DNA of 64,000 bases, from assembly GCA_002917775.1 (NCBI GenBank), contig KZ627148.1, forward strand, positions 1,144,764 to 1,208,763. Direction: 5' to 3'. The stretch's first letter is position 1; each line of letters starts with the position of its first letter. Made by a program: the position numbers and the translations under genes. The stretch comes from Glaciozyma antarctica PI12 (lineage: Eukaryota > Basidiomycota > Microbotryomycetes > Kriegeriales > Camptobasidiaceae). Below, piece by piece: positions 2,079 to 62,242 of the stretch. Under the pieces are notes generated by a model. It was not told the origin of the DNA and made no database searches. It saw nothing but the letters and a program-made list of their open reading frames with translations.

Positions 2079-2133
2079 TCGAGTAGTGACGAGCTGCTCT
2101 CTCCGCCGGTTTCGACCTCAAGCTGCTGCCAGG

Positions 2134-5100
2134 ATGGCTCAACGGAAGATGCAGCACCAAAGGGCGCTCGCTTCAGTGGGCAACGCAGCCTCTCTCTTCG
2201 GTGGAGGATCAGCAGACGACGGCGACTTCTTCAACGCCCTCGGCAGCTCCACCAACCCTCAACCCGGACCACCGCCACCTCTCCAACCCTCCCTCTCCAG
2301 CTCCCAAGGAATCAGCACCGTCGTGGAGGAGGAGGAGCCCTTGTCGCCCGAGGCGGAGCTCAGGGGCAGCGAGTTCGCGCCGCAAGTCTTCGGCGCGGGG
2401 ACGTCCACGCAGGACGACTGGTTCAGCGGAGGAGAGCACCAGCAGCAGCCTCAACAACAGTACGATGCAGCTCCTCAAGATGAGCAGGCATTCGACCCGG
2501 CGTACGGTGCGGCTTCGGCCTACGACTACTCGCAGCAACCCTCCTACGCCACGTCGACTTCGCACCACGACTACTCCCAGCACGACTACTCCTCCCAATC
2601 GACCTCGCACGACCAGAGCACCTCCGAATCCTCCGATCAGAACGCTGGCTACGCCGAGCCGCAGGTCTATCCGGGGTACATCTACGACTACGCGTCCAAC
2701 TCCTACCTCCCCGACCCGAACGCGCAGGCCGAAGGATGGACGCCGGACCAGCAGTCGGTCGGGTATCAGGCGAATGGAACGGACGAGGACGAGCAGGGGC
2801 AGTGGAACGGCTACGTGGGAGACGGAGGGTATCAGCCAGAGGGAGCGGAGTACGGCGAGCAGCAGTGGGATCAGCAGGGACACGCGACGGGCGGACAGCA
2901 GAGTTGGGAGCAACAGGAGGTACCTCAGGAGCAGCAGCAGGAGGACTACCCCTCCTACGCGCCGTATCCGGCTCTCCCTGCGTCCCCCGACCAAGGGTAC
3001 GATCAGCAGCACGCCTACCAGTCGTTCGCCCCACCATCGGAACCGGCCTACGATCCCTACGCTCAGCAACAATCCGAGCAGAGCCATCAGAAGCACGACG
3101 CGATCGATCCCTACGCCTCTTCCTACCATCCTCAGGTCTCGCCTCTGTCGCCTCCCCACGCCGCTGCCGTCTCCCCACCCCCTCCAGCGTCCTACCAACC
3201 TCCCCAGACGTTATCCCCGCCTCCTCGCACTCTCTCCGGCGGCACTACTCCCGCCACCGTCCCTCCACCGCCTCGGTCCACCAAATCCGTCGCGCCTCCG
3301 CCTCGCTCGACCTCAAGTCCGAGCGTGCAGCCACCGCATTCGACCTCCCCTCCAGCGCCTCCGCCAGCGCCCTTCACTCCTCCCACTGAGGTTGACACCT
3401 TCCAACCCTACCATTCCACGTCTTCCCCGCCTCAACAGTCTTTCCGCGCGGCGCCAGCGCCCATCTCGCGACCGAATGGGCAGGACTCGCCTTACGACTC
3501 TCCTCCGATTCCTCCACCACACTCGGGTGCGTCAAGCCTCTCCCAGCACTTACGGAAACATTTCGCTGACGTTTTGATACCTCCAGCTGCATCCTGGGAG
3601 CAGTCTACCCACTCGTCGGCCGCATTCGACGAGGCGCCTCGATCTCCACCCTTCACGGAGGATTTCCCTTCCACTTCTCTCGCCGACTCGCACGCCTTGG
3701 GCGTAGACCTCTCCTCCCGCGCCATCGACCCCGACGTTGACGACCTCGTTGAGGGCGTTCACGGCTCGACGATCGAAGACCGTCCCGCAACGAGGCGTGA
3801 GGAAAGCTGGAGCGCCAACGTTCCTGAGCTGAGCGTCGAAGCGCCGAGTCCCGAGATGGAAGCGCGGTACGACGACCAGCCTGAGGAGCCCGAGGAGCCC
3901 GAGGCGGGGATCGAGGATGAGATGGGAGGAGCGGCGCTGGAGGACCTCTTCCCCGAGCGGTCTGCGGCGTCGAAGCAGGACGAGCAGTATGGGTTCGACG
4001 ATTCGCAGGTCTTTGGCGAGGAGGGTGGGAACGACGGGAGTCAGGGCGGTTCGAATTATGGGGAGTGGAGTGGGAAGAGCGAGGCGATGCAGGGGTACGA
4101 CTACGTGGCGGGAGCAGGTGGAGCGAGTGGGGAGGCATACGATTCGTACGCGCAGGAAGCCGAGGAGTCGAAGGCGTTCACTCCGACCGTCAACGCGTCC
4201 TCCGTCGCAGACTCTCCCTACGCCTACGCCCCCTCAACGAACGACTCTCCCTACGCCCCCTCCGATTCTTACGCCCCGTCCAGCTCGTACGCTCCTTCGA
4301 CGAACGAAACACCCTACTCCCAGCCCACCCCTCCTCCCCGCGACACCGTCACCACTCTTTACACGTACGGATCGCAACAGTACGGCTCTCCCACCCAATA
4401 CGGCGCCTACGACTCTCCTCCCAAGCCGACTTCGTACCCCTCCCCTCCAAAGCCCTCTGGATTGCACATGCAGTCCCGACAGGCCGACTCTTCGCAAGAT
4501 CCCTACGCCGCCTACCCCGCCCCGACCACTCCCTTCCACGCCGATATGAACGACTCGTACGCCAACTACCCCACGCCGACGAACCAGTCCCTCGCCACGC
4601 ACGATCCCTACTCCGCCACTGCAGACGGGAACATGACCGCTCCTGCGGCGTACGGCAACTACCCCGAATCGACGCACTCCCCTTACCGTCCTTCTCCGAC
4701 GAACGCGCGTCGCTACAGCTTCGACGAACCCGCCGCAGCGCCTTACGACCCTTACGCACGGCCGGAGCCTACACGGCAGATGTCGAGCGCGTCGGTCGAG
4801 ATGGGAGAAGCGGCGGACCTCGGTCTCGAGCGCTGCATGGCGCCGGTCATCTCGTTCGGCTTTGGAGGGAGGATGCTTGTCGTCTTCCCTGGTAGCTCGA
4901 CGCCTGCGTACGGCATGGACGCGTACGGCGCTGCGCCGACTGCACCTTCCTCCCCTTCGACCGTGCACATTCGCAAAGTCGTCGCTCTCTTTCCTTGTAC
5001 GGCGGCGGAGGCGAGCTTCCCTGGACCGATCTTCATGGACGGTGGAAGGGCGAACGCGGGGAAGAAGAGTAAGGAGGCGGTGAGCTGGTTGGAAGGGAGG

Positions 5101-8100
5101 ATTGGAGAGCTGGAGCAGGAGGCGGCGTACGTTCGAGATGCGGGACCGGCGGGCTTTGCAATGTCGGGGGCGGAGGAGGGGGGAGTGCGGAGGAGGAAGC
5201 TCGAGACGAGAGTTATCCTCGTCAAGCTCGTCAAGACGCTCGTTGAGAACGAGGGCAAGCTGAGTGGGACGTGAGTAGCTGTTCTTCGCCTCTTTCTTTC
5301 ACTGCGACTGACAGGCTCTCGGCACCACCAGACCCAATATCGACGAAACGGTTCGCTCGATCCTCGTCCCCCACTCCGTCGCCGCTGCAGATAGCTCCGA
5401 CGCCGACCTACCTCTCGCCTCCGAACTTGCCTTCGCTCATCCCATCACCCCCATGGCGACCGGCAGTTCCGACGCTCCTCTCGCAACCTACACGGTCACC
5501 CCTTCGAACCTCGACCGCATCTCCGCCTTCCTCCTTCGCGGCGAGCGACGCAAGGCCGTCAAGTACGCGCTCGACCACCAGATGTGGGCGCACGCGTTCG
5601 TCATCTCGAGCTGCGTCGATACCGACTGCTGGAAGGACGTCGTTACCGAGTTCTTGAGGTCGGAGTTGAGTCCTTCGCTTGATGGCGGAGCCGCGACCTC
5701 GAATGGACGCGAGGGGCTGCGGGTGGCGTACAGCATGTTTGCGGGCTTGGGGGGAGAGTCGAGTAAGCCGCTGCCTTTTTTGGACATCGTCCTCGCACTG
5801 ATCTTGTTCGCAAACAGTTCAGCAATTCCTACCGCCGCGCCCTCTCGCTCAACCGCAAAGCCACCGCACCGCTCAGCTCCTCTCCGCCGGCCCCATCGCT
5901 CGCGCAGCCACTCCCATCTCCCCCAGCTTCCCCGACGCACTTCTCGTTGGCGACCTCCCCGATTCGGTACTGGCGAACTGGCAGGAGACGGTCGCGATGA
6001 TCATCGCCAACCGAACGGCGGGAGATTCGGTGGCGTTGACGGCGCTGGGAGATACCCTCATGACGAACGGCTGGCTTGACGCGGCTCACGTCTGGTGAGC
6101 CTCGCTTTTGATGCTTCCTCGCTCGCAAACTAACGGCCGAGCCTTCGCAGCTACCTCCTCTCGCCTGGAACCTCTCCCATCGGCGGCGTCGGCACTCCCT
6201 CGACACGACTCGTTCTCGTCGGCGGCGAAGCACCCGCAGCAACGAGCACGGCATCGGTCACCCTCGAGAGCATCATGCTCACCGAGTTGGTCGAGTTCGC
6301 CTTCTCCCTCGCGCCTTCCGTCAAGGGTCAGGAGCAGTTCGCTGGCTTCCCCCACCTCCAGGCATTCCGCCTCCTCCATGCGACGCAGCTCGCCGATGCA
6401 GGCCACCTCTCGCAAGCTCAGAAGTCAGCACCTTCCTCCCGGCCTTCTCTTCGAGCGTCACTGACCGGATTCGGCGCAGGTACACCGATGCTATCGTCAA
6501 CACGCTCAAGCTCGCCACCAAGTCGACGCCGTTCTACAACCCCGGCCTCGTAGCGCAAGTCAAAGCCCTTTCTGACCGACTCATCGCCGCACCCGGCCAC
6601 GACAAGGGCGGATCCTGGCTCGCCCTCAAGGTCCCTCGGCCGACGATCGACTCGCTTTGGTCGACCTTGGAGGGACGGTTCAGCAAGTTTGTCGCAGGCG
6701 AAGGCGAGCCAGCTACGTCGAAGGTCGCGAAAGCCGCCGAAGTCGCCAGGCTCGCAAACGGAGGAGCTATCGGTCCTTTCTCGCACTACAGCTCCATCTC
6801 CCCCGCCAACACCTCCGGCACTCTCTCTCAACATCATTCCCAGACCGACCTTTACGCTCAGAACGCGTACGCCGCACCCCCTTCTCGCCCGACGTCTGCC
6901 GCTGCGCAACCCGTCGCTGGACCTCCGCCCGTCAAGCGCGCACCGTTCAAGACGCACCATTCGAGGTCCTCGTCCCTCGGGTTCGCAGGCTACAATTACG
7001 ACGCCGCAGCTCCTCCGCCCTGGCAGTCGTACCAGCCGCCCGAGGTCGGCCAGGATGCGGAAGCCACGACGCCCAAGGCGACTTCGCAGGAGTTTGGCGC
7101 CGACCCCGACCGAGGGTACGGCTACGAGAGCACGGCGTATGGCGAGGAGGGAGGTGCGGAGGAGGGAGGGAGTGGGAACGATCGAGGATGGGGATGGGGG
7201 TCTCGCAGCGATAACCTCGCTGCGTCCTCCTCGTCATTGCGAGCTCCGACTTTCACGCCTGTCAACGAGACGTTCGCAGAGGACGAGTCGGGCTTCATCT
7301 CCCCCATGGCGGCGTACACCCCTTCGGCTTCGCCTGGGATCCCCTCGTCGTCGTACTCGAACCAGCAGCAGATGTCGCACAAGCGGACGACGACGCGCGA
7401 CGAGCTCGACGACCTTGGGATCGGGAACAGCAAGTCTCGCAAGCCCGCGTTCGACGCTATCGACGAGCAGGCTGGGGAAGGAGAGGATGGAACTGGCGCA
7501 TCGGAGAAGCACGAGGATGCGAAGAAGATCGAGGACAAGCCTGGTTCGTCCTTCCATCTTTTCTCCGCTGCATGCATCTAACGAGGTTATTCGGCAGCTA
7601 TCAAGCCGTCTCGATCTTGGCTCGGCGGGTGGTTCAAGCGCGAGGCCTCCCCTGCCGCTGGTGCTGGTCCCGTCAGGGCGAACCTCGGCGAGCAGACTTC
7701 GTTCGTCTACGATGCTGAGCTCAAGCGCTGGGTCAACAAGAAAGTGCGTTCAGCTCCTTACCTTCTCCTATCCCGCCATACTGACTTAATCTTTCTCCAG
7801 TCCGGCGGCGACGCCAGCTCTGCACCTCTCGCCAATGCACCCCCTCCTCGAGCCGCCACCGCCTCTCCGACACGCGCCGCTCGCGCCCACATGCCCCCGC
7901 CTCGCTACATGTCCGAAACTCCTCCTCCCCTCCCCTCCGGCCCTCCACGTTCCATGAGCGGCCTCCCTCCTCCTCCCCTCAACCGCGCCAAGACGTCGGC
8001 GGACCTCAACGAGATGAACCGCTCGAGCGCAGGGCAGTTCCGTTCGGCGTCGACGGGACCGTCACCTATGCCTCCGAGGCCGAGTTCGGCGGCTGGTTCG

Positions 8101-21518: not shown

Positions 21519-23174
21519 TCAAGCACTCTCCTTCGCACTCTTCCCAACCTTGCCCGAAGGCCCGTACGAATCCGCCTTGCGATGAAGAATGTCGATGACA
21601 GGACCTATAGAACGCTTCAGCGAGAGTTCGAGTCGAAGAACGGAACGAGACGCACCGAGGAGGCGAGTAAAGGCCTTCTCTCCGAGCGTCGCGACGCGGA
21701 GACGACCGTGCCCTGGAGTGGCGCGTACAGTCGCTGCTCGAGGCGCCGAGTTGAGGAGAGCGAGCTCTGTAGACGTCAACGCACTATCAGCAATCGTCTC
21801 GCACCAAAGAGCGAAAAAGGACGCACCTCCAAAGTAGTCTCCCTTCCCCAGACTCCCCAACACCTCTTGCTCCTCCGCTCCTCCCTCGACCTCCTTCCTC
21901 CTCAACACCTCCGCCGACCCACTCTCGATGATGTAAAAGTTCTTGCCGACCTCTCCCTCAACGACGACCTCCTCTCCCTCCTCATACACATACACCTTGA
22001 GCGCGTCGGCGATCTTGGCGCGTTCCTTCGTGTTGAGGCTCGCGAGGATCGGAACCTCGCTCAAGAAGCTCTCGTACATCTTGCGCTTCCTCGACGTATG
22101 CTCCATAAGGATACTCCTAAACGTAACCCGATCGAGCGCCCACATCGTCGCCGGACTCGTAGCCACGACCGTCGCCGCCCTCGGCGCGTTGTACATGAGC
22201 GCCAATTCGCCAAACGACCCGCCAGGACCATACGCAGCGACTTGCTTCTCCTCGCCGGGCGAAGTGACCGAGTTGCTCGGGCCGACGTACGTGTGGCTGG
22301 GCGGTGCGCGAACCCAGACTTCGAACGTCCCCTCCTCGACGACGTAGAAAAAGTCTCCGACGGCGCCTTGGACGATCACCTCAGTGCCCTTCGAGACCGA
22401 GACTTCCTTCATCGCGTTCAGGACGTCGTGGTGTTGGTCCTCGTCGAGGTTCCGGAAGAGGAGGTTTTTGGAGATGCTCGCTTCGATGCGGGCGCGTTGC
22501 GAGGGCGTCTTGGGGATGACGATCTTGGGGAGCTGAGCAGCCGAGTTGGGGTCGAGGGATTCGGCAGAGACGGAGGAGCGACGTCCGAGGTTGTACCCCA
22601 CTGGGATCCCGCTGTCCGCGTCGCCTGGAGAGCTCGTCGTACCCGTCGCGGCGTTGTAGTTGTCGCGAGGGTCGTAGACGTCCTCGTCCGACTCCTCCGT
22701 CTGCATCTCGTCGCCCGCGCTAGGCTTCGACGACCGGCCGGGAGAGACGAGCGTCATGTCGCGAAGGGAAGAGGCGTTGGCGGCGGCAGGGGAAGTGGGG
22801 CCGGTCCCTCTGGTGCTAGTCGGCTGTTGCGCGAAGGGCGAAGCGCCGGTGGAGTTGGGAGGGTATTCGGAGAAGGGGGAGCCGGTGGGAGCCTCGACGT
22901 CCATCGAGCGCGGTCCTCCAAAGGTGTACTCCTGACCCGTCAACGAAGGTTGGGACGCCTGCTTCGGCAGTGCTGATCCCCTGCGCGCCGCGAGAGACCC
23001 TTGGCTCAGCGACGCGACCTGCTCCTCGCCCCCGGCCCTCGAAGCGCCGCGCTCAGCTTCGAGGCGTGCGGCGAACCAGTTGGCGCAATATTGGAGAGGG
23101 TCGGTAGGTTGGGTGCGGAGGACGTCGCGGTTTAGGTCGGAGAGGATCGAGGAGTAGGCGGCGGGAAGCGACAT
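21519..23174 (-). CDS. BCY1/PKR1: cAMP-dependent protein kinase regulatory subunit
   Basis: Inhibits the PKA catalytic subunit until cAMP binds. Start MSLPAAYSSILSDLNRDVLR fits the dimerisation/docking helix (LQYCANWFAARLEAER). A disordered linker leads to the inhibitory site GRRSSVSAESL (R-R-x-S). Cyclic-nucleotide domain A has LFRNLDEDQHHDVLNAM and the phosphate-binding cassette FGELALMYNAPRAATV. Domain B has FLSEVPILASLNTKERAKIA, KNFYIIESGSAEVLRRKEVE and a second cassette YFGELALLNSAPRAATVRAT, spliced across an intron (GTGCGT...ACAG). Ends KVGKSAKESA. About 530 residues. An in-frame upstream stretch to 23270 lacks an ATG and is taken as leader. Confidence 0.96.
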   Translation of the reverse strand: MSLPAAYSSILSDLNRDVLRTQPTDPLQYCANWFAARLEAERGASRAGGEEQVASLSQGSLAARRGSALPKQASQPSLTGQEYTFGGPRSMDVEAPTGSPFSEYPPNSTGASPFAQQPTSTRGTGPTSPAAANASSLRDMTLVSPGRSSKPSAGDEMQTEESDEDVYDPRDNYNAATGTTSSPGDADSGIPVGYNLGRRSSVSAESLDPNSAAQLPKIVIPKTPSQRARIEASISKNLLFRNLDEDQHHDVLNAMKEVSVSKGTEVIVQGAVGDFFYVVEEGTFEVWVRAPPSHTYVGPSNSVTSPGEEKQVAAYGPGGSFGELALMYNAPRAATVVATSPATMWALDRVTFRSILMEHTSRKRKMYESFLSEVPILASLNTKERAKIADALKVYVYEEGEEVVVEGEVGKNFYIIESGSAEVLRRKEVEGGAEEQEVLGSLGKGDYFGGASFFALWCETIADSALTSTELALLNSAPRAATVRATPGHGRLRVATLGEKAFTRLLGASRSVLRLELSLKRSIGPVIDILHRKADSYGPSGKVGKSAKESA

Positions 23175-23980
23175 CGTGGGGAAGAGAGAAGGTGGGGAAG
23201 AGAGGGAACGAAGAGTCGTGGGTGGGATCTGGAGCCCAATCGAGGTCAGCTTGTTCCCTCGAGCTCGCAAGCCAGCTTCGCCACGTACGACGGGAGTTCA
23301 GAGACAGGCTGGTCGACACGAGAGGCGTTAGCGCAACCCCGGTTCCTCGAGTCCGCGCCTCTGCTCACCAGCGATAGACAAGCCCGTAAATGCAATCAAG
23401 CTGTAGCCTCTAGAGCGCAAGCTCGCGTAGGTCGGGATCTAGTAGAAGCTGGCCTCAATCTCGAGGACAAAAGGAGGCGTTGCGTCGAGCTTTGAGGCAG
23501 GTGGCTGGCGATTTGGCGAGGGCTGAGAGCGCGTCACCAGAGCGTCGGGGGGCAGTACGAGAATGCTGATATTGAGATAGGGGAGGGAGTGCCGGGAGGG
23601 GGGAGGCTTGTGGAGAGTGCTGGTGCGGGAGACGGGGGGTCAGCTCCTGCAACACGCAACGGAGACCACCTGTTCGAAGCTTGCCACTCACTGAACTTGG
23701 AAGCTGAGGGCCTTCTCTGGAGCTGGTAGAGGTCGCGAGGGAGGGGAGGTGGAGGGGCGGTAGAGTGGGGGACGGTGAGAGAGGCTGGTCCCAAAACGAT
23801 CGAATTTCGCGTAGTCCAAACGACTCCTGTCTTTTTACGCTGCCCTTCTCTTCCTTCGTTCTCCTCCTGGAGTGGAGGGGGTTGTTTCCTTTCTCCGTTC
23901 GACACCATCTGAGAACCGTATTATCGCGAGAATCACAACTCGGCGTACGATCTTGAATCCAACACCATCCGCTTGCAATC
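23175..23980. other. Upstream region of the PKA regulatory gene
   Basis: About 800 bp between the PKA regulatory start and the 3' end of the SnoaL-like gene, both on the minus strand. It should hold the PKA-R promoter and leader. Scattered short ORFs have no recognisable content. Confidence 0.4.
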
Positions 23981-27637: not shown

Positions 27638-30600
27638 TTATGCAGAGGTGGAAAAGGAAGGGGGGAGTTCGGTGATCTTGCACCGGTAGAAGGACTCGAT
27701 CGAGCGAAGCATGTCGACGTCGGCCCCCGGAGTGACGATGTTGATGGCGGCGCCAGGTCGACCATAGCCGGATGCTGTCGCGCATGCGATTCTGAAAGCA
27801 GGAACGATAAGCTGAGTTCGATGCGAGCAAGCGAGAAAGACTCGCCGGTGAACGTAGGACTCTACGTCTCGAGGGAGATCGTAGTTAATGACGAGCGGGA
27901 CTTTATAGAGGGAAGAACAGTGAGCAGGGATTCTCTGAACGATCCAGAGAAGATCTCACCTTGGTGAACGTCCGTGAGAGTGCGGCACAGAGCGTCGTAG
28001 ACGACGAGGCACCGCTTGTTGGGTCCAGTACGGCTGGGAACGGCCGAGCGGAACTTGGACATGATGGCGTACCTGGCGGACTGGCCCATGTCCTGGTGCT
28101 GTCATCGCAAGCGTTAGGTCGTCTCGGGCTGATGACTAAACGAAAAGACGCACAAGAGCCAAAGCCTCGATGGCGCGAGTTCCGAGCTTGTAGGTAACGG
28201 CCTCAACGGCGTCAACCGACGAGCAGAAGATAACCTGCAGCACCACCATCAGTCGCGCTCGTAGGAAGGCGAGACAAATCTACTCACGCAGTTCTCGAAC
28301 GCATAGTCCTCGCAAAGGTCCGCCAAAGCCTCAAGCTTCCACTCCCTCGCCGTCGTGGCCTCGCGCCTCCCGACGCCAACAGCCTTACTCTTCGCCGCTG
28401 CTCCAACGGCGATGTAGAGGTAGTACTGCTTGAGTCCTCGAACGGACGGGCTCGAGCTGTCGCCGCCCTCGCGACGAACGAGAACGCGAACCGGCTCGCG
28501 CAGCTGGAGCGACGACGCGAAGTTCCTGCACACGAACGTCGTTAGCATCGTTCGAGCGGCGAGGAGGCCGAAACGCGACTCACAAGACGTCCTGAGGGCA
28601 GGTGCACGACAGCAAGACCGTCTGCCGTCCCGACGCCGCAGCGTTGTACGTCGACGACGACTGCATCGAGAACGCGCTCCCCGTCTCTCCAAACGATCCC
28701 GGCAATCCCAGCCCTCCACCAAGCATAGGACTCCTGCTGGCGGTCGGCGACCCGGGCGCTCCGACTCCAGACGGTGGGAGGAGGCGAACGAGGTTGGCGA
28801 CGTAGTCGGAGAGGTTGCGCGCGATGAGCTGGTCGCACTCATCGATGACGAGGAGGCGAATGTCGGTGACGGGGAGGGTTCGCATCGCGAAGAGGTCGAG
28901 GAGGCGCTGAGGCGTGCCGACGAGGACGTGAGGCGGTGCCTTGAGGAACGTCGCGAGGTCTTGCTGGAGGTCTCCCTGGCCGACGCACAGACTGGTGCGA
29001 ATCCCGAGCGAGCCACCGAGTCCGACGGAGAGGCGTTGGGCTTGGGCGGCCTGGTCGACGGTGGCGGTGACGACGAGGATCTGAACGCCTTTCGAGGCGG
29101 AGGACGCGCCTTCGGCTGTCGCTTGCGCTGCGGCGGAGCAGATCATCTGCAGTGCGGGGACGATGTACGACTGGATGCGCTCCTGGATCGAGGGAGCTTG
29201 TGCGACGATGTCCTGGTTGCGAAGGACGCAGGGGATCGCCTTGGACTGGATCTTGGTCGGTGGGCCGAGCCTGCGAAGCCAAGTAGGACGGTCAGCGTCT
29301 GTTCTACGTATCACCAGCGGCCACTACTCACCCATACTTGGCGATAGTCCTGAAGAGCTCTGCTCCGATCCCCAGCGCTTCCCACTTGCCGCCTAGCGAA
29401 CCAGGAGGGTTGCCATTGATCGAGCTGCTGACGAGTCCAGCGAGAGGAGAAGGCATGCCGCCATTCGCGCTCGCCGTCTCCCAAGTCGACTGCGATCCCG
29501 TGTCGAAAGTCTGCACCGCTCATCAGCTTCCATCGCGCCCGCAGAGAGAAAAGAACGCACGCTGCCATCAAGCCTCAATGCGCTCTGCCCCACCGCTCCG
29601 TAGCCCAACTGGCTCCTCCTCCTCTCCTCCATCTCTCCTCTCCCAAACCCACTCCCCGCGCGTCCGCCGACAATCCCATTCGCGCTCCCAGGCCTCATCA
29701 TCCCCGCTCTCCCTCCCAACGCAGTCCCGTTCGCCGTGACGCCCAGCCCCGCTTTCCACCCCTCGACGAGCGAGCCGATCCCCGGAGTTCCAACCGAGGG
29801 CGAACCAATAGGGAGCGACATCTGTCGCTGGTTCTGGTGCTGCGGGATGATGGGGGAGGTAGAGGGGCTTTGGAGACCGACGCTGCCGTTGTTCATAAGG
29901 TGGGCGACAGAGTTGGAGAGGGAGGAGAGCTGAGCCGTGAGAGCGCGAATCTGCTCGTCCTTGCTGTCGGCGCTGGTCGTGCGCGTCCTTTCGTCCCGAT
30001 CCGAGTAGAGTACGCCTGGGGCCGAGTGGGCGGGCGAGGGAGGGATGGAGATGGTTGAGAGGTAGGAGTGAGCGTGTTGCTGCTGAGTCGATCCTGCGTT
30101 GCGAGGGGGGAGGGGGAAGGAGGATTGGGGCGAGGGAGAGCGGAGAGTAAGGAGAGGGGAGTCGGACGTTTCGCCTTGTTGAGCAAGGTGACGAGGACCC
30201 CCAGTGAAGGAGGACGATTGGAGGACGAGACCGCGGAGGACGCCTACCTCCTCGCGGAGAGAGCGGACCTCGTTGTTGACGAGGGAGGAGAGGCCGCCGA
30301 CGGTCGATTCGAGTGAGATAAGGCGTTGGGATAGGACGTCGAGGGAGGTGATGGGGGACGTATCGGTGAGGCGAGGAGAGTCGGCGCGGACAGTCGAGGG
30401 GAGAGGTGAGAGGGCGGATGCGTCCGGAGTGGGGGAGTTGAAGAGGGACGAGGTGGCGATGGCGGCGGCAAGGTTGCTGCTGTCGCTCGGGTTGTTCAGA
30501 ACATCGAGGGAGAGAGAGGGGGTGGATCCAAAGCCGCACGAGTCGTTGCTGCGCGTAGGGAGGACGTCCAAGATGAACGATGAGGCTCGACTGCCGCCGT

Positions 30601-31102
30601 CCTGAGCGTTCGTCACCGGCTCCAAGCTCGAGAGAGCTCCCCTCCCATCCCATCCTCCGGCGCTGACCAGCTTGTCAGGCGACGACGCCAGCTTGCGCCC
30701 GTCTCCTATCGCACCAACGGTCGGCGTGCTCCTTCCCCTCGACGCCGCTCCGCTCCCTCCGCCGTTCGCGACAACCTCCTCCCGCGAAAGGACCATGTCC
30801 ACTGAGCTCGAGACGTCCCTGAAAGACCTCCGCTCGATAGGGGGATAAGGTCGTCCGGTCTCGACGTCCTTGACCGCGACTTGCTGAAAGTCGTGGCGCC
30901 CGAGTACGTCCCGACCGTTGTTCCCGCCGTCCGTAAGCTCGTGAGAGTGGGGAAGAGGGCTGTAGGACGATCCGTAGTGACCAAAGTGGTCGGCAGCGGT
31001 GAAGTAGGAGGAGGGAGCTCCTGAGGGCGAACGACTGCCCGATCCTGGCGCTCTTGAGAAGTAGGCGCTGCCCCCGCTCACGGAGCCACCACTAGTCGCC
31101 AT
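27638..31102 (-). CDS. DEAD-box-fold protein (eIF4A-like) lacking ATPase motifs
   Basis: Residues 1 to about 530 are disordered (S, G, P) with two short leucine-rich helical stretches ([20 protein letters not shown]). Then an eIF4A-type helicase domain aligns end to end: Q-motif [10 protein letters not shown], but motif I reads [17 protein letters not shown] where eIF4A has AQSGTGKT. Motif Ia reads VTATVDQA (PTREL lost), TPQRLLD replaces TPGR, motif II is DECD, motif III SCT. In RecA2, [23 protein letters not shown] and [17 protein letters not shown] are well kept, but motif V and motif VI ([10 protein letters not shown] for HRIGRGGR) are gone. It ends [20 protein letters not shown] like eIF4A. 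Loss of the Walker A Lys and Arg fingers argues against ATP hydrolysis. Role unknown; perhaps a scaffold in translation or RNA granules. The start [15 protein letters not shown] is clear. Confidence 0.82.
27792..27845 (-). other. GC-AG intron
   Basis: 54-nt intron with donor GCGAGT and acceptor TTTCAG in the DEAD-box-fold gene. Splicing joins SYVHR to [19 protein letters not shown] in frame, matching the eIF4A alignment on both sides. Confidence 0.7.
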
Positions 31103-31407: not shown

Positions 31408-32088
31408 ATGAGCCGAGTAACAGGATATGCCCAGTCGCTGCTAAGAGCAGTCAAGCCCTCGTCGTCGTCCGCCCGCCTCTTCAGCACCTCAACACCTTCC
31501 TCCTCTCCCTACCCCTTCTCCACCACAGCTCGCATCATCCCCTCCTCCCCTCCCCCCTCAGCCCCTCTCAGCGACTCCCTCCTCCGCACTCTCAACACCC
31601 ACCTCACCTCCCTCCACCCCTCAGCGCCGACCTACCTCCCCCTCTTCTCGCGGCGTCACCCGAACCGTCTCCTCCCAGGCTCAGTCCTCACCGTCTCCTC
31701 CTACTCCTCCGTCCCCACCCCCGAGAACCCCAACCCTACAACCAACTCCTTCTCCGGCGTCCTCATCGCCGTTCGTCGGCGTCACGCAGGACGGGACACG
31801 AGTTTCCGCCTGAGGAACATGGTCGGACGGACGGGCGTCGAACTCGCGTACAAGGTCTTTTCGCCCCTCGTGGCGAACATCAAGGTCGTTAGTCGTGCGA
31901 CTACTTCAGGCCCGCCGACGGTGAGCAAGGGAGGAGTTGAGGGGCAGAGGAGGAAGCCGGCGCTTAGGGCGAGTAGGAGGGCGAAGATGTACTGGGTTCG
32001 CGATCAGCCCGAGGGGTTGGTGGGCGTGGGTGGTATTGTCAAGCAGATGAGGGAGAGGGAGATGCAGGCGGAGAAGAAGAGGAGGTAG
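31408..32088 (+). CDS. IMG1: Mitochondrial ribosomal protein bL19m
   Basis: Component of the large mitoribosomal subunit at the subunit interface. A single exon from MSRVTGYAQSLLRAVKPSSS (presequence) through a low-complexity S/P stretch to the bL19 core: LPGSVLTVSSYS, SFSGVLIAVRRRHAGRDTSF, RLRNMVGRTGVELAYKVFSP and LVANIKVVSRAT. The signature F-S-G-V-L-I-A-x-R-R-R-H-A-G-x-D-T-S-F-x-L-R-N is complete. A basic C-terminal extension (RRKPALRASRRAKMYWVRDQ) is common in fungal forms. 226 residues. Confidence 0.94.
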   Translation: MSRVTGYAQSLLRAVKPSSSSARLFSTSTPSSSPYPFSTTARIIPSSPPPSAPLSDSLLRTLNTHLTSLHPSAPTYLPLFSRRHPNRLLPGSVLTVSSYSSVPTPENPNPTTNSFSGVLIAVRRRHAGRDTSFRLRNMVGRTGVELAYKVFSPLVANIKVVSRATTSGPPTVSKGGVEGQRRKPALRASRRAKMYWVRDQPEGLVGVGGIVKQMREREMQAEKKRR

Positions 32089-59398: not shown

Positions 59399-62242
59399 AT
59401 GGCAGCCCGCAAGCTCATGAGTGAGTCTACGGAGCAGCACCAGAAGGGAGAGGGACAACGGAGAGGAGCGCCAGGTAGTACAGGGTTGGATTGGTGGGCG
59501 CTCGAAGGGCGGCAGCAGCTGCTGAGGAGCTTGGGAGAAGGCGGGCCCGACCGACCGCCACCTTGCGATCCCCACATGACACAGACGAGTTGACGCCGCG
59601 GCTCCTCTTTCGCAGCGGAGATTGAGCGCACACTGAAGAAGGTGGCTGAAGGAGTGAGTGCCTCGCGCGAACTGGAGGTGAGGAAGTGCAGGAGCTGATG
59701 GCGCCCCCGTTCTTCTGCAGGTCGAGGTGTTTGAGGGCGTGCGTACTCCTCGGTGGCGTGCGCTTGCAGGAGCTAATACGATGGCATGTACAGATCTTCG
59801 ACAAGATCCAGCAAAGCACGAACCAGACGCAGAAGGAGAAGCTCGAGGTCGAACTCAAGTCGCAGATCAAGAAGCTCCAACGACTACGCGACCAGATCAA
59901 GACCTGGGTCCAGTCGAACGATATCAAGGACAAGCAACCTCTTGTGGACAATCGTAAACTGATTGAAACAGTGCGTTTGAGTGACCATGCGGGAGGAGCG
60001 TTCGGACGTACGGAGGATGGAGCTGACCCCCCACCCCCGCTCGCAGCAAATGGAACGGTTCAAGGCGTGCGAGAAGGAGATGAAGACCAAGGCGTTCTCG
60101 AAAGAAGGTCTCAACGCGGCCGCCAAGCTCGACCCGAAGGAACAGCAGAAGCTCGAGCTGTGCCAGTGGATCACGACCATGGTCGACGAGCTCTCGCGGC
60201 AAGTCGAACAGACCGAGGCGGAGATCGAGGGGCTTCAATTGCTCAAGAAGAAGAAGGACTCGGATCGGGAGCAGCGTTTGGATGAGCTGGAGGTGCTGAA
60301 CGAGCGGAGAGGGTGGCACGTCGCGCGACTCGAGTTGATCCTTCGTTTGCTCGAGAACGGCAACCTGCAAGCGGACGCAGTGGCAGATGTGCGGGATGAC
60401 ATTGCCTACTTTGTTGAGAGCAATACGGTACGTCCTCTGTCCTCATTCGAGCGCGCGACGAGGGAGGAACGGGAGCTGACTCTGCACGGTCGACAGGAGG
60501 AGGACTTTGAGGAGGACGAAGGCATCTACGACGACCTGAATCTGGAAGAGGAGGAAGAGCTCTTCGGAACTGGCGCCGACGACATCCAATCCTCGCACGA
60601 CTCGGTCTCCGTGGCAGACGAAACTCCCGCACCCTCCTCCATCCCTCCTACGCCCGTCGCCGCTCCTCCGGTACCTCTCCCCACTCCTCGAACGCCCGCC
60701 AAGGAAGCTCCCAAACCGTCTCAACCCGAGCCTCCCGCTGCGAAAGCGAAGAGCGGTCCCTCGCCCACCGCACGGAAACCGACGCTCGATTCGACCACCC
60801 CTCGACCAGTCCTCCAGACCCCCACCCGCGCGTCCTCCATCCCGACACCCGCATCCGCCTCTCCCGCTCCGCGCACGGCTCCAGCACCTCTCCCTCCGAT
60901 CCGCTACGCCGCCGCCGCAGCAGCCGCCAACGCACCTCTCCCCTCTCCCGCCCTCCCTACTCCCACACCTACCACTTCCCTCCCTCTTCCTCCTCCTCCG
61001 ACTCCTTCCCTCCCACCACCAGGCCTCCAGGCATGCAGCATGAGCCTCCGTCTCGACCGCTTCGACGACCGAATCCCGCCAGCCTTCGACGACGTCGAGC
61101 CCTGAGATGATGAAGGCTAGTTTGCCGGATCTGGCGAACTTGGCACTGAGCGAATCGGCGCCGAGTCCGATGATGTCGGCGAGGACGACGGGGACGCCAG
61201 CGAGTGGAAGTCCGGCTTTGAGCGCTGCTTCGCACGTACGTTTTTCTCTCGTCCTCCACGACTGCACGGAACTGACGCTCGCTCCACAAAGATCGCTCCC
61301 TCCGCTCCCTCACCCTCCGCTCCCTCCCCTCTCGCCCCCTCTCCAGCACCCACCTCCGCCTCCCTCCCCACCGCACCCTCGCCCGAGTCTCCCGCCCCTC
61401 CAGCCTCCGAGCCCGCGCCCCAAGCCCCGCCGCCGGCGCGCACGAACGAACCGCGTTTGCCGAGCAGTCTCGCGGATCTGGTGACGAGCTTTGAGAGTGC
61501 TAAACAGAAGTGTGAGTTCTCTCGTTCTTCCTTTGCGGGGGAGGAGCTGATGAGTGCGTGTAGCGATGAGGAGGGAGAATGATTTGGGAAGCTTGCATGA
61601 GATCCTCGATGCGGGATTCTCGTCCGTTCCCCAGCCTCTCGATGCAGAGAAGTACGTTCCCTCCTCTCTCTCCTCGTTACGCACGAGCTGATGAGAGTGT
61701 GATAGGCCAAAGTACTACGTGCCCCGTCAGCCATTCGTCACGCCCGGGTATTACCCTCAGGAGCCTTCGGGACAGTTTGCGAACCCGGCGTTGTTTACCA
61801 AGTTTGATGTCGATACGCTCTTCTACATCTTCTACTACTGCCAGGGGACTTACCTCCAGTACGTCCTTCCCTCCCTCCCTCCCCCTCCTTCCCTACCCGC
61901 CCTCTCCCTCCCTCCTCGCCCTCGCCCCCGCCCCCGCCCCCTCCCCGCCCTCTGCTGACGAGGAAAGCGCTGACGAGACCTTCACAGGTTCCTCGCCGCC
62001 TCGGAGCTCAAAAAGCAAAGCTGGCGGTTCCACAAGCAGTACCTAACCTGGTTCCAACGCGCCAACGAGCCTTCCCAAATCACCGACGAATACGAGCAAG
62101 GAGTCTAGTACGTCCCCTCTCCCCTTCCTTTCGTTGGATGAGGCTGATGAGGAGTAGCTTGTATTTCGATTGGGAGGGTTCGTGGTGCCAGAGAAGGAAG
62201 AGCGACTTTAGGTTCGAGTACCGATATCTTGAGTCCGAGTAG
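59399..62242 (+). CDS. NOT3: CCR4-NOT complex subunit Not3/Not5
   Basis: Subunit of the CCR4-NOT deadenylase complex; it docks on the ribosome E-site in yeast to sense codon optimality. Start [20 protein letters not shown], then the conserved coiled coil: [93 protein letters not shown], and [16 protein letters not shown] long P/A/T-rich linker follows, then [14 protein letters not shown] and the NOT box: [100 protein letters not shown] and RYLESE. About 760 residues. In the linker near 60,950-61,100 the frame must change by one base without a visible intron. Confidence 0.95.

Follow-up and report, generated by a model that had tools for sequence, protein, structure and literature searches.

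A conserved family of eIF4A-like proteins in basidiomycetes with a rewritten ATP site, proposed to be pseudohelicases

A gene of Glaciozyma antarctica PI12, located on the minus strand of the 64,000-nucleotide stretch of DNA analysed here (the window), encodes an eIF4A-like protein in which motif I of the ATP site is replaced by a different sequence, QAPxxQERI, that is common to every homologue fetched. The reading that we favour, at a probability of roughly 0.6 and on the basis of sequence comparison and a predicted model, is that the protein is a pseudohelicase, i.e. an eIF4A-type two-RecA protein that would stand outside the normal ATP cycle and be kept as a non-catalytic docking protein. 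The QAPxxQERI family is real, conserved and mis-annotated. Its non-catalytic status is well supported by the alignments, to the extent that selection acting on that status is highly probable, and its fold is predicted by modelling. Docking we would back at somewhat better than even odds as the role of the pseudohelicase, and the proposal of a MIF4G protein as the partner is tentative.

The coding sequence extends from 31102 (ATG) to 27638 (end of the stop codon) and specifies 1024 amino acids in eight exons with no internal stop; its ends coincide with those given in a preliminary description made from the DNA letters alone. The seven introns are 50-61 bp in length, six being GT-AG and the last GC-AG. 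The possibility that intron 7 was mis-called was rejected, since an alternative GT four bases further on would cause a frameshift and the loss of a C-terminus that is common to the homologues. Motifs I, Ia, Ib and II and the SCT of motif III all lie within the uninterrupted exon 3, so mis-splicing cannot create them, in agreement with the earlier claim that no mis-splice underlies the changed sites. An L19-type ribosomal protein gene adjoins the locus, and genes for a PKA regulatory subunit, Sec16 and Not3 lie farther away; no clue to function was gained from these neighbours.

Table 1. Positions in the window of the exons and sequence features of the G. antarctica gene
Feature	Coordinates	Strand	Basis
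Exon 1: aa 1-514, the greater part of the low-complexity N-terminus	29561..31102	-	Gene model; pLDDT <50 here outside two helices in the P0004 model
Helical module 1, aa 258-295	30218..30331	-	Conservation among 30 N-termini of Pucciniomycotina; P0004 model, helix 238-279
Helical module 2, aa 380-406	29885..29965	-	Profile matches; helix 382-410 in the P0004 model
Exon 2: end of linker and start of RecA1, KWEALGIG at 29364-29387	29332..29510	-	Gene model
Exon 3: RecA1, motifs I, Ia, Ib, II and most of III, one open frame	28584..29270	-	Gene model; Pfam DEAD aa 579-802
Recoded motif I (P-loop replaced)	29174..29203	-	.QAP..QERI in 242/242
Recoded motif Ia (TATVDQ)	29033..29068	-	TVDQ in 242/242; column entropy 0.5th percentile
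Changed motif Ib, VGTPQR	28904..28921	-	Alignment, column entropy
Motif II, kept, with a new tail	28811..28843	-	DExDQ in 242/242
Exon 4: end of motif III, linker, start of RecA2	28288..28525	-	Gene model
Acidic helix, equivalent of the eIF4A/eIF4A3 MIF4G-binding helix	28306..28344	-	Both acidic positions in 234/242; mapped via eIF4A3/eIF4A1
Exon 5: RecA2 motif IV region	28154..28234	-	Gene model
Exon 6: motifs IVa and V, both drifted	27960..28098	-	Gene model; entropy percentiles 83 and 76
Exon 7: strand LVINYDLP and beginning of former motif VI	27846..27900	-	Gene model
Exon 8: remainder of former motif VI, C-terminus, stop	27638..27791	-	Gene model; joined via GC-AG intron 27845-27792

Inspection of motif I in 242 sequences, comprising 241 fetched homologues and the G. 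antarctica protein, revealed the pattern.QAP..QERI (consensus [AS]QAP[PAS][TI]QERI) in all 242, the AxxxGxGK[ST] of catalytic DEAD-box helicases being absent from this position throughout. Two variants, AQAPPTQERI (208 sequences) and AQAPAIQERI (27), were accompanied by two others with 5 and 2 occurrences. No GxGK[ST] was present at motif I in any of the 242, and the string was found in a single protein only, far from this motif. A canonical sequence, AQAQSGTGKTATF, aligned without a gap to an example from the family, AQAPPTQERIASY. In the same gapless register against AQAQSGTGKT, the first glycine is replaced by Thr or Ile, the second by Glu, the lysine by Arg and the threonine by Ile in 19/19 of the sequences that were compared residue by residue (19 of the 242). 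Substitutions of this kind in a P-loop make a classical ATP cycle very unlikely, and such a cycle is accordingly not expected of a protein in which lysine has become arginine, threonine has become isoleucine and both glycines are lost.

The same 19 sequences revealed changes in the remaining motifs. The arginine of motif Ia is replaced by valine, the glycine of motif Ib is lost, motif V is lost and so are the later arginines of motif VI (HRxGRxxR), where the second arginine is C, P, A or L in 19/19 and the third position is never Arg among the listed states. By contrast, the glutamine of the Q-motif, the Asp-Glu-x-Asp of motif II and the Ser-x-Thr of motif III are retained. The patterns DExDQ, TVDQ and S[NC]T[VC]P were each found in 242/242, the middle residue of DExDQ being V in 203, C in 31 and another residue in 8. 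The preliminary description had read motifs I and Ia, DECD and SCT correctly in the G. antarctica protein; its claim that every ATPase motif is lost holds for the P-loop, motif Ia, the motif Ib glycine, motif V and the later motif VI arginines, but not for the Q-motif glutamine, DExD and SxT, which persist.

Column entropy was calculated from 42 representatives sharing <80% identity, with 4 short rows left out and 422/469 columns scored. The lowest percentiles, i.e. the most conserved windows, were found in RecA1: motif III at 0.3, Ia at 0.5, the ARNL segment at 1.1, I at 3.2, Q at 3.3 and II at 5.3, with the strand VRVLVRRE at 2.4 and motif Ib at 14. The RecA2 motifs gave values of 61 (IV), 83 (IVa), 76 (V) and 77 (VI). 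That the RecA1 windows are among the most conserved while the RecA2 motifs drift implies that constraint no longer bears on the RecA2 half of the ATP site but on the new RecA1 sequence. Judged from the alignment, the ATP site has been rewritten and then frozen, the pocket being replaced by a different near-invariant sequence and not merely lost.

Homology to helicases is, on sequence scores, far beyond chance. The G. antarctica protein matched Pfam DEAD with 59.2 bits (cut-off 26) and Helicase_C with 49.8 bits (cut-off 23.5), and a phmmer search of PDB sequences returned human eIF4A-I as the best match (E 2.3e-50), followed by eIF4A3 and yeast eIF4A, with Dhh1 well below. The helicase fold that had been proposed from homology is thus upheld by these scores, and the structure prediction that had been suggested as a check was carried out for a homologue of 568 residues from Rhodotorula graminis, P0024, for which an AlphaFold model and fold searches indicated two RecA domains. 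The RecA1 domain of this model matched human eIF4A at 2.1 A over 207 residues, and Foldseek gave an E value of 4.2e-27 to eIF4A1. In the model of this one homologue, the phosphate loop is reduced to about three residues and the following helix is predicted to begin early. Three features of a pseudohelicase are found here: the helicase fold appears to be kept, from sequence and from the homologue model; the catalytic motifs are lost; and the loss is conserved in orthologues.

The core begins with KWEALGIG at aa 556, the K and W of which were found in 240/242 sequences, the remaining 2 being gapped there. It is preceded by a stretch of 555 residues, close to the length of about 530 given in the preliminary description, and the disorder that was claimed for this N-terminus is mostly reproduced in the model of one full-length homologue (P0004), as distinct from the G. 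antarctica protein itself. A profile of helical module 2 scored >10 bits against 39/44 Ustilaginomycotina-type N-termini and 16/144 other N-termini (0/44 and 0/144 when shuffled). Helical module 1 was not found by profile outside Pucciniomycotina, with 0/44 and 0/144 N-termini scoring >10 bits. RRM fusions in five homologues (P0035, P0042, P0057, P0078 and P0082) were considered as a clue to function and rejected, because three Tulasnella proteins carry a single RRM near the start, which we take to resemble a Pab2-type neighbour, and the remaining RRM-fused homologues look different.

The extent of the family was established from three protein searches (E up to 1e-3, ∼8000 candidates scored), of which the best 120 of 344, of 326 and of 3811 matches were used; all 241 distinct proteins among the matches listed were taken into the pattern counts. 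The third search was aimed at shorter or more distant members, and its best 120 of 3811 were the same family again. Named members among the matches listed included Meredithblackwellia, Leucosporidium, Rhodotorula, Sporobolomyces and Microbotryum in Pucciniomycotina; Exobasidium, Tilletia, Ustilago and relatives in Ustilaginomycotina; and Agaricomycetes (many mushrooms, Auricularia and Tulasnella) in Agaricomycotina. Lineages were checked for three example members, many rows being without a name, and the best-120 lists do not bear either way on Tremellomycetes, Pucciniales, Malassezia, Wallemia or Ascomycota. One family record is filed under a fern, probably as a result of fungal contamination. 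A clade with the same motif losses across basidiomycetes, which had been named beforehand as a check, is therefore found in all three large subphyla, and the intact-motif orthologues that had been set beforehand as evidence to the contrary were absent from the 241 homologues examined (best 120 listed per search).

In the 20 Mb genome of G. antarctica the family occurs once: the core found its own locus at high score, and the next match was eIF4A (57.6 bits, 32% identity). This genome also encodes eIF4A (contig 18; 74-75% identity to human eIF4A1), Fal1 (contig 7) and Dhh1 (contig 10), all with GTGKT. Members have been entered in databases as ‘RNA helicase’, ‘ATP-dependent RNA helicase eIF4A’, ‘FAL1’ or ‘related to TIF2’, names that are misleading for the QAPxxQERI family.

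In phylogenetic analysis, 19 family members formed one clade with 100/100 support and a stem branch of 0.97 substitutions per site. Subclades track the subphyla, and the clade is vertical. An AU test on 28 sequences rejected a sister relationship to eIF4A alone and to Fal1 alone (p 0.003 each) but did not reject placement as sister to eIF4A+Fal1 (0.41), to Dhh1 (0.10) or to the Rrp3/Dbp8/Ded1 group (0.59, the best tree). Of the conserved family residues that recur in just one paralogue, 10 were shared with eIF4A1 and 2-3 with each of five other paralogues. These tree and residue results are to be read with the knowledge that long-branch attraction biases the placement one way and the slow evolution of eIF4A the other, and that the paralogue sequences contain some intron noise; both accord with a stem relative of eIF4A and Fal1. 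The earlier term “eIF4A-derived” is consequently apt in that eIF4A is nearest by similarity, in both the PDB phmmer search and the group-unique residues, but not as a statement of descent, as the AU test rejects a sister relationship to eIF4A alone and the tree with Fal1 and Dhh1 leaves the origin open.

A possible partner is suggested by an acidic helix of RecA2. The available portions of two papers report that the eIF4A3 substitutions D270K/D273K abolish CWC22 binding (PMC4482076) and that the eIF4A1 substitutions D265R/E268K/D296A/T298K impair the interaction with eIF4G (PMC7470955). Numbering was transferred by taking eIF4A3 residue 270 of 2xb2 minus five, with agreement of all four letters. 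In the alignment, the positions of D265 and E268 are both acidic in 234/242 sequences; the D296 position is Gly or Ala in 236/242 and the T298 position is Glu or Asp in 242/242. That the acidic face is kept and two of the four eIF4G contacts are altered makes docking to some MIF4G protein plausible and eIF4G itself uncertain; given the changed D296 and T298 positions, eIF4G may not be bound at all. The acidic pair is not exclusive to the family. In the same genome, Dhh1 and Ded1 have no acid at these positions, and one of the two is acidic in Dbp5, a Rrp3-like protein and one Ded1-like protein. The acidic helix as a whole ranks only at the 27th percentile for conservation, and a constraint that centres on the RecA1 cleft, and not on this face, may be a sign of a different ligand.

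The following mechanism is proposed. The P-loop was swapped for QAPxxQERI without a change in length in every homologue fetched, and the invariant Glu and Arg of QERI may occupy the old phosphate site, pairing with the retained acids of motif II. The co-conservation of these residues suggests that the pocket may be filled by a salt bridge within the protein. Filling of this kind would lock RecA1 in one shape and create a new binding surface. The acidic helix that RecA2 has retained would serve to dock a MIF4G/HEAT protein, either eIF4G or a relative, and the disordered N-terminus with its conserved helices might recruit a second partner or self-associate. The outcome would be an adaptor or a competitor of eIF4A or eIF4A3. 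The fullest version of this scheme, which we regard as speculative and on balance improbable, is a basidiomycete-wide ATP-independent decoy of eIF4A, whose pocket would have been rebuilt before the subphyla split (QAPxxQERI/TVDQ/DExDQ/ARNL) as a fixed, self-filled or new-ligand site and which would take the place of eIF4A or eIF4A3 on MIF4G proteins and so control translation or the assembly of mRNPs.

Other explanations of the rewritten pocket have been considered. The recoded RecA1 pocket might bind another ligand, such as a metabolite, a nucleotide or a partner peptide, and so act as a sensor or switch and not as a scaffold only. The strongest constraint lies exactly at the old RecA1 ATP/RNA motifs, with QAPxxQERI, TVDQ and DExDQ in all 242 sequences, as this explanation would have it; however, the loss of both P-loop glycines and the early start of the helix in the model would leave scant space for a phosphate, the pocket has no known ligand, and we consider this explanation unlikely. 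A family member might instead play a structural part, as a RecA brick of a large RNP of ribosome assembly or splicing, outside translation, in the manner of Utp25, which has the same general anatomy of a disordered N-terminus before a dead RecA1-RecA2 (PMC9539457, as far as the available text describes it). A survey of Ustilago maydis RNA helicases, in the portion of its text available, associates by STRING one basidiomycete-specific DEAD-box protein with ribosome biogenesis (PMC12511879); it places the other with translation, and one of the two probably belongs to this family. We regard a brick of this kind as a distinctly improbable role.

Retention of activity is more difficult to accommodate. 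The conservation of DExDQ and S[NC]T[VC]P in 242/242 is what would be expected if the protein were still an ATPase or an RNA-dependent switch through unusual chemistry, but with the Walker lysine changed to arginine, the threonine to isoleucine, both glycines and the motif VI arginines gone and the RecA2 motifs drifting, such activity is very improbable. The missing ATPase motifs, and nothing else, would also fit a faulty gene model, a sequencing error or a pseudogene in decay. That explanation is scarcely credible, given the open frame over eight exons and the same recoding in 241/241 homologues from three subphyla. Recent decay and mis-splicing are ruled out by the intact frame together with this identical recoding, and the earlier judgement that this is not a decaying gene is thereby sustained.

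Like eIF4A (eIF4A1/2, yeast Tif1/2) and eIF4A3 (Fal1, DDX48), which are its best sequence and fold matches, the family has a two-RecA core and the acidic MIF4G pair; unlike them, it is devoid of the P-loop and of motifs Ia, V and VI, has an N-terminal extension of about 555 residues and is rejected by the AU test as sister to either alone. Utp25/Def, the pseudohelicase of the SSU processome, is likewise described in the available text as a conserved DEAD-box fold without catalytic motifs behind a disordered N-terminus (PMC9539457). It differs, in a comparison made by description alone, in having no DEAD sequence and a kept motif Ia (PMC9539457, same portion of text), whereas the present family keeps DExD and has motif Ia recoded. 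Pseudohelicases as a kind are already known from Utp25, the subject of the one pertinent pseudohelicase paper found among open-licence papers, and the eIF4A-like QAPxxQERI family adds a new variant.

Within basidiomycetes, the accessible part of the 2025 Ustilago survey describes UMAG_05873 and UMAG_00835 as DEAD-box helicases that are specific to basidiomycetes and uncharacterised in function (PMC12511879). It ascribes to their cores several canonical motifs (data not shown there), treats both as helicases and, in that part of the text, does not call them inactive (PMC12511879). Because smut proteins named ‘related to TIF2’ belong to the family, one of the two is probably its orthologue. A basidiomycete-specific clade may therefore already have been published, as far as this portion of the survey indicates. 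No paper on UMAG_05873 other than PMC12511879 was found, and a search of open-licence papers found neither the inactivity nor the recoded pocket of such a clade in print.

The database names present these proteins as helicases, and the 2025 survey does so for UMAG_05873 and UMAG_00835; on present evidence, members of the family cannot be ordinary ones. They represent a natural and long-lived split of an eIF4A-type fold from ATP hydrolysis that can show this fold as a pure binding module, and the frozen, rewritten pocket offers a direct structural test of the conversion of a P-loop enzyme to a scaffold. The family can also show whether basidiomycetes own a regulator of translation or mRNP that is missing from yeast models.

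The pseudohelicase gene is transcribed divergently from a ribosomal protein L19 family gene, with a spacing of ∼305 bp between the two start codons; by our reading, this neighbor is of the mitochondrial type. At the other end of the pseudohelicase gene, its last intron, which has a GC-AG pair of splice sites, interrupts the former motif VI (a RecA2 helicase motif whose later arginines are lost in the family) at its middle. An open frame with a domain of the CCR4-NOT complex lies 28 kb away from the pseudohelicase gene.

Features in the window around the pseudohelicase gene
Feature	Position	Strand	Score or source
Sec16 mid-region protein	2086-5274	+	
Regulatory subunit of PKA, with RIIa and cNMP-binding domains	21519-23270	-	
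Last intron of the pseudohelicase gene (GCGAGT...CAG)	27845-27792	-	gene model
Ribosomal protein L19 family gene	31408-32088	+	35.2 bits (cut-off 22)
Open frame with Not3 N-terminal domain	59981-61105	+	156.4 bits

One fetched family member, P0122, carries a source record from the fern Adiantum nelumboides. This sequence is 73% identical to family member P0087 and falls by score with Exobasidium-type sequences, and it is probably a fungal contaminant in a plant assembly.

An annotated RRM domain is present in five homologues (P0035, P0057, and the Tulasnella sequences P0042, P0078, and P0082). In the three Tulasnella homologues, the RRM, which we take to be Pab2-like, is situated close to the N terminus and probably represents an adjoining gene fused in by the gene caller.
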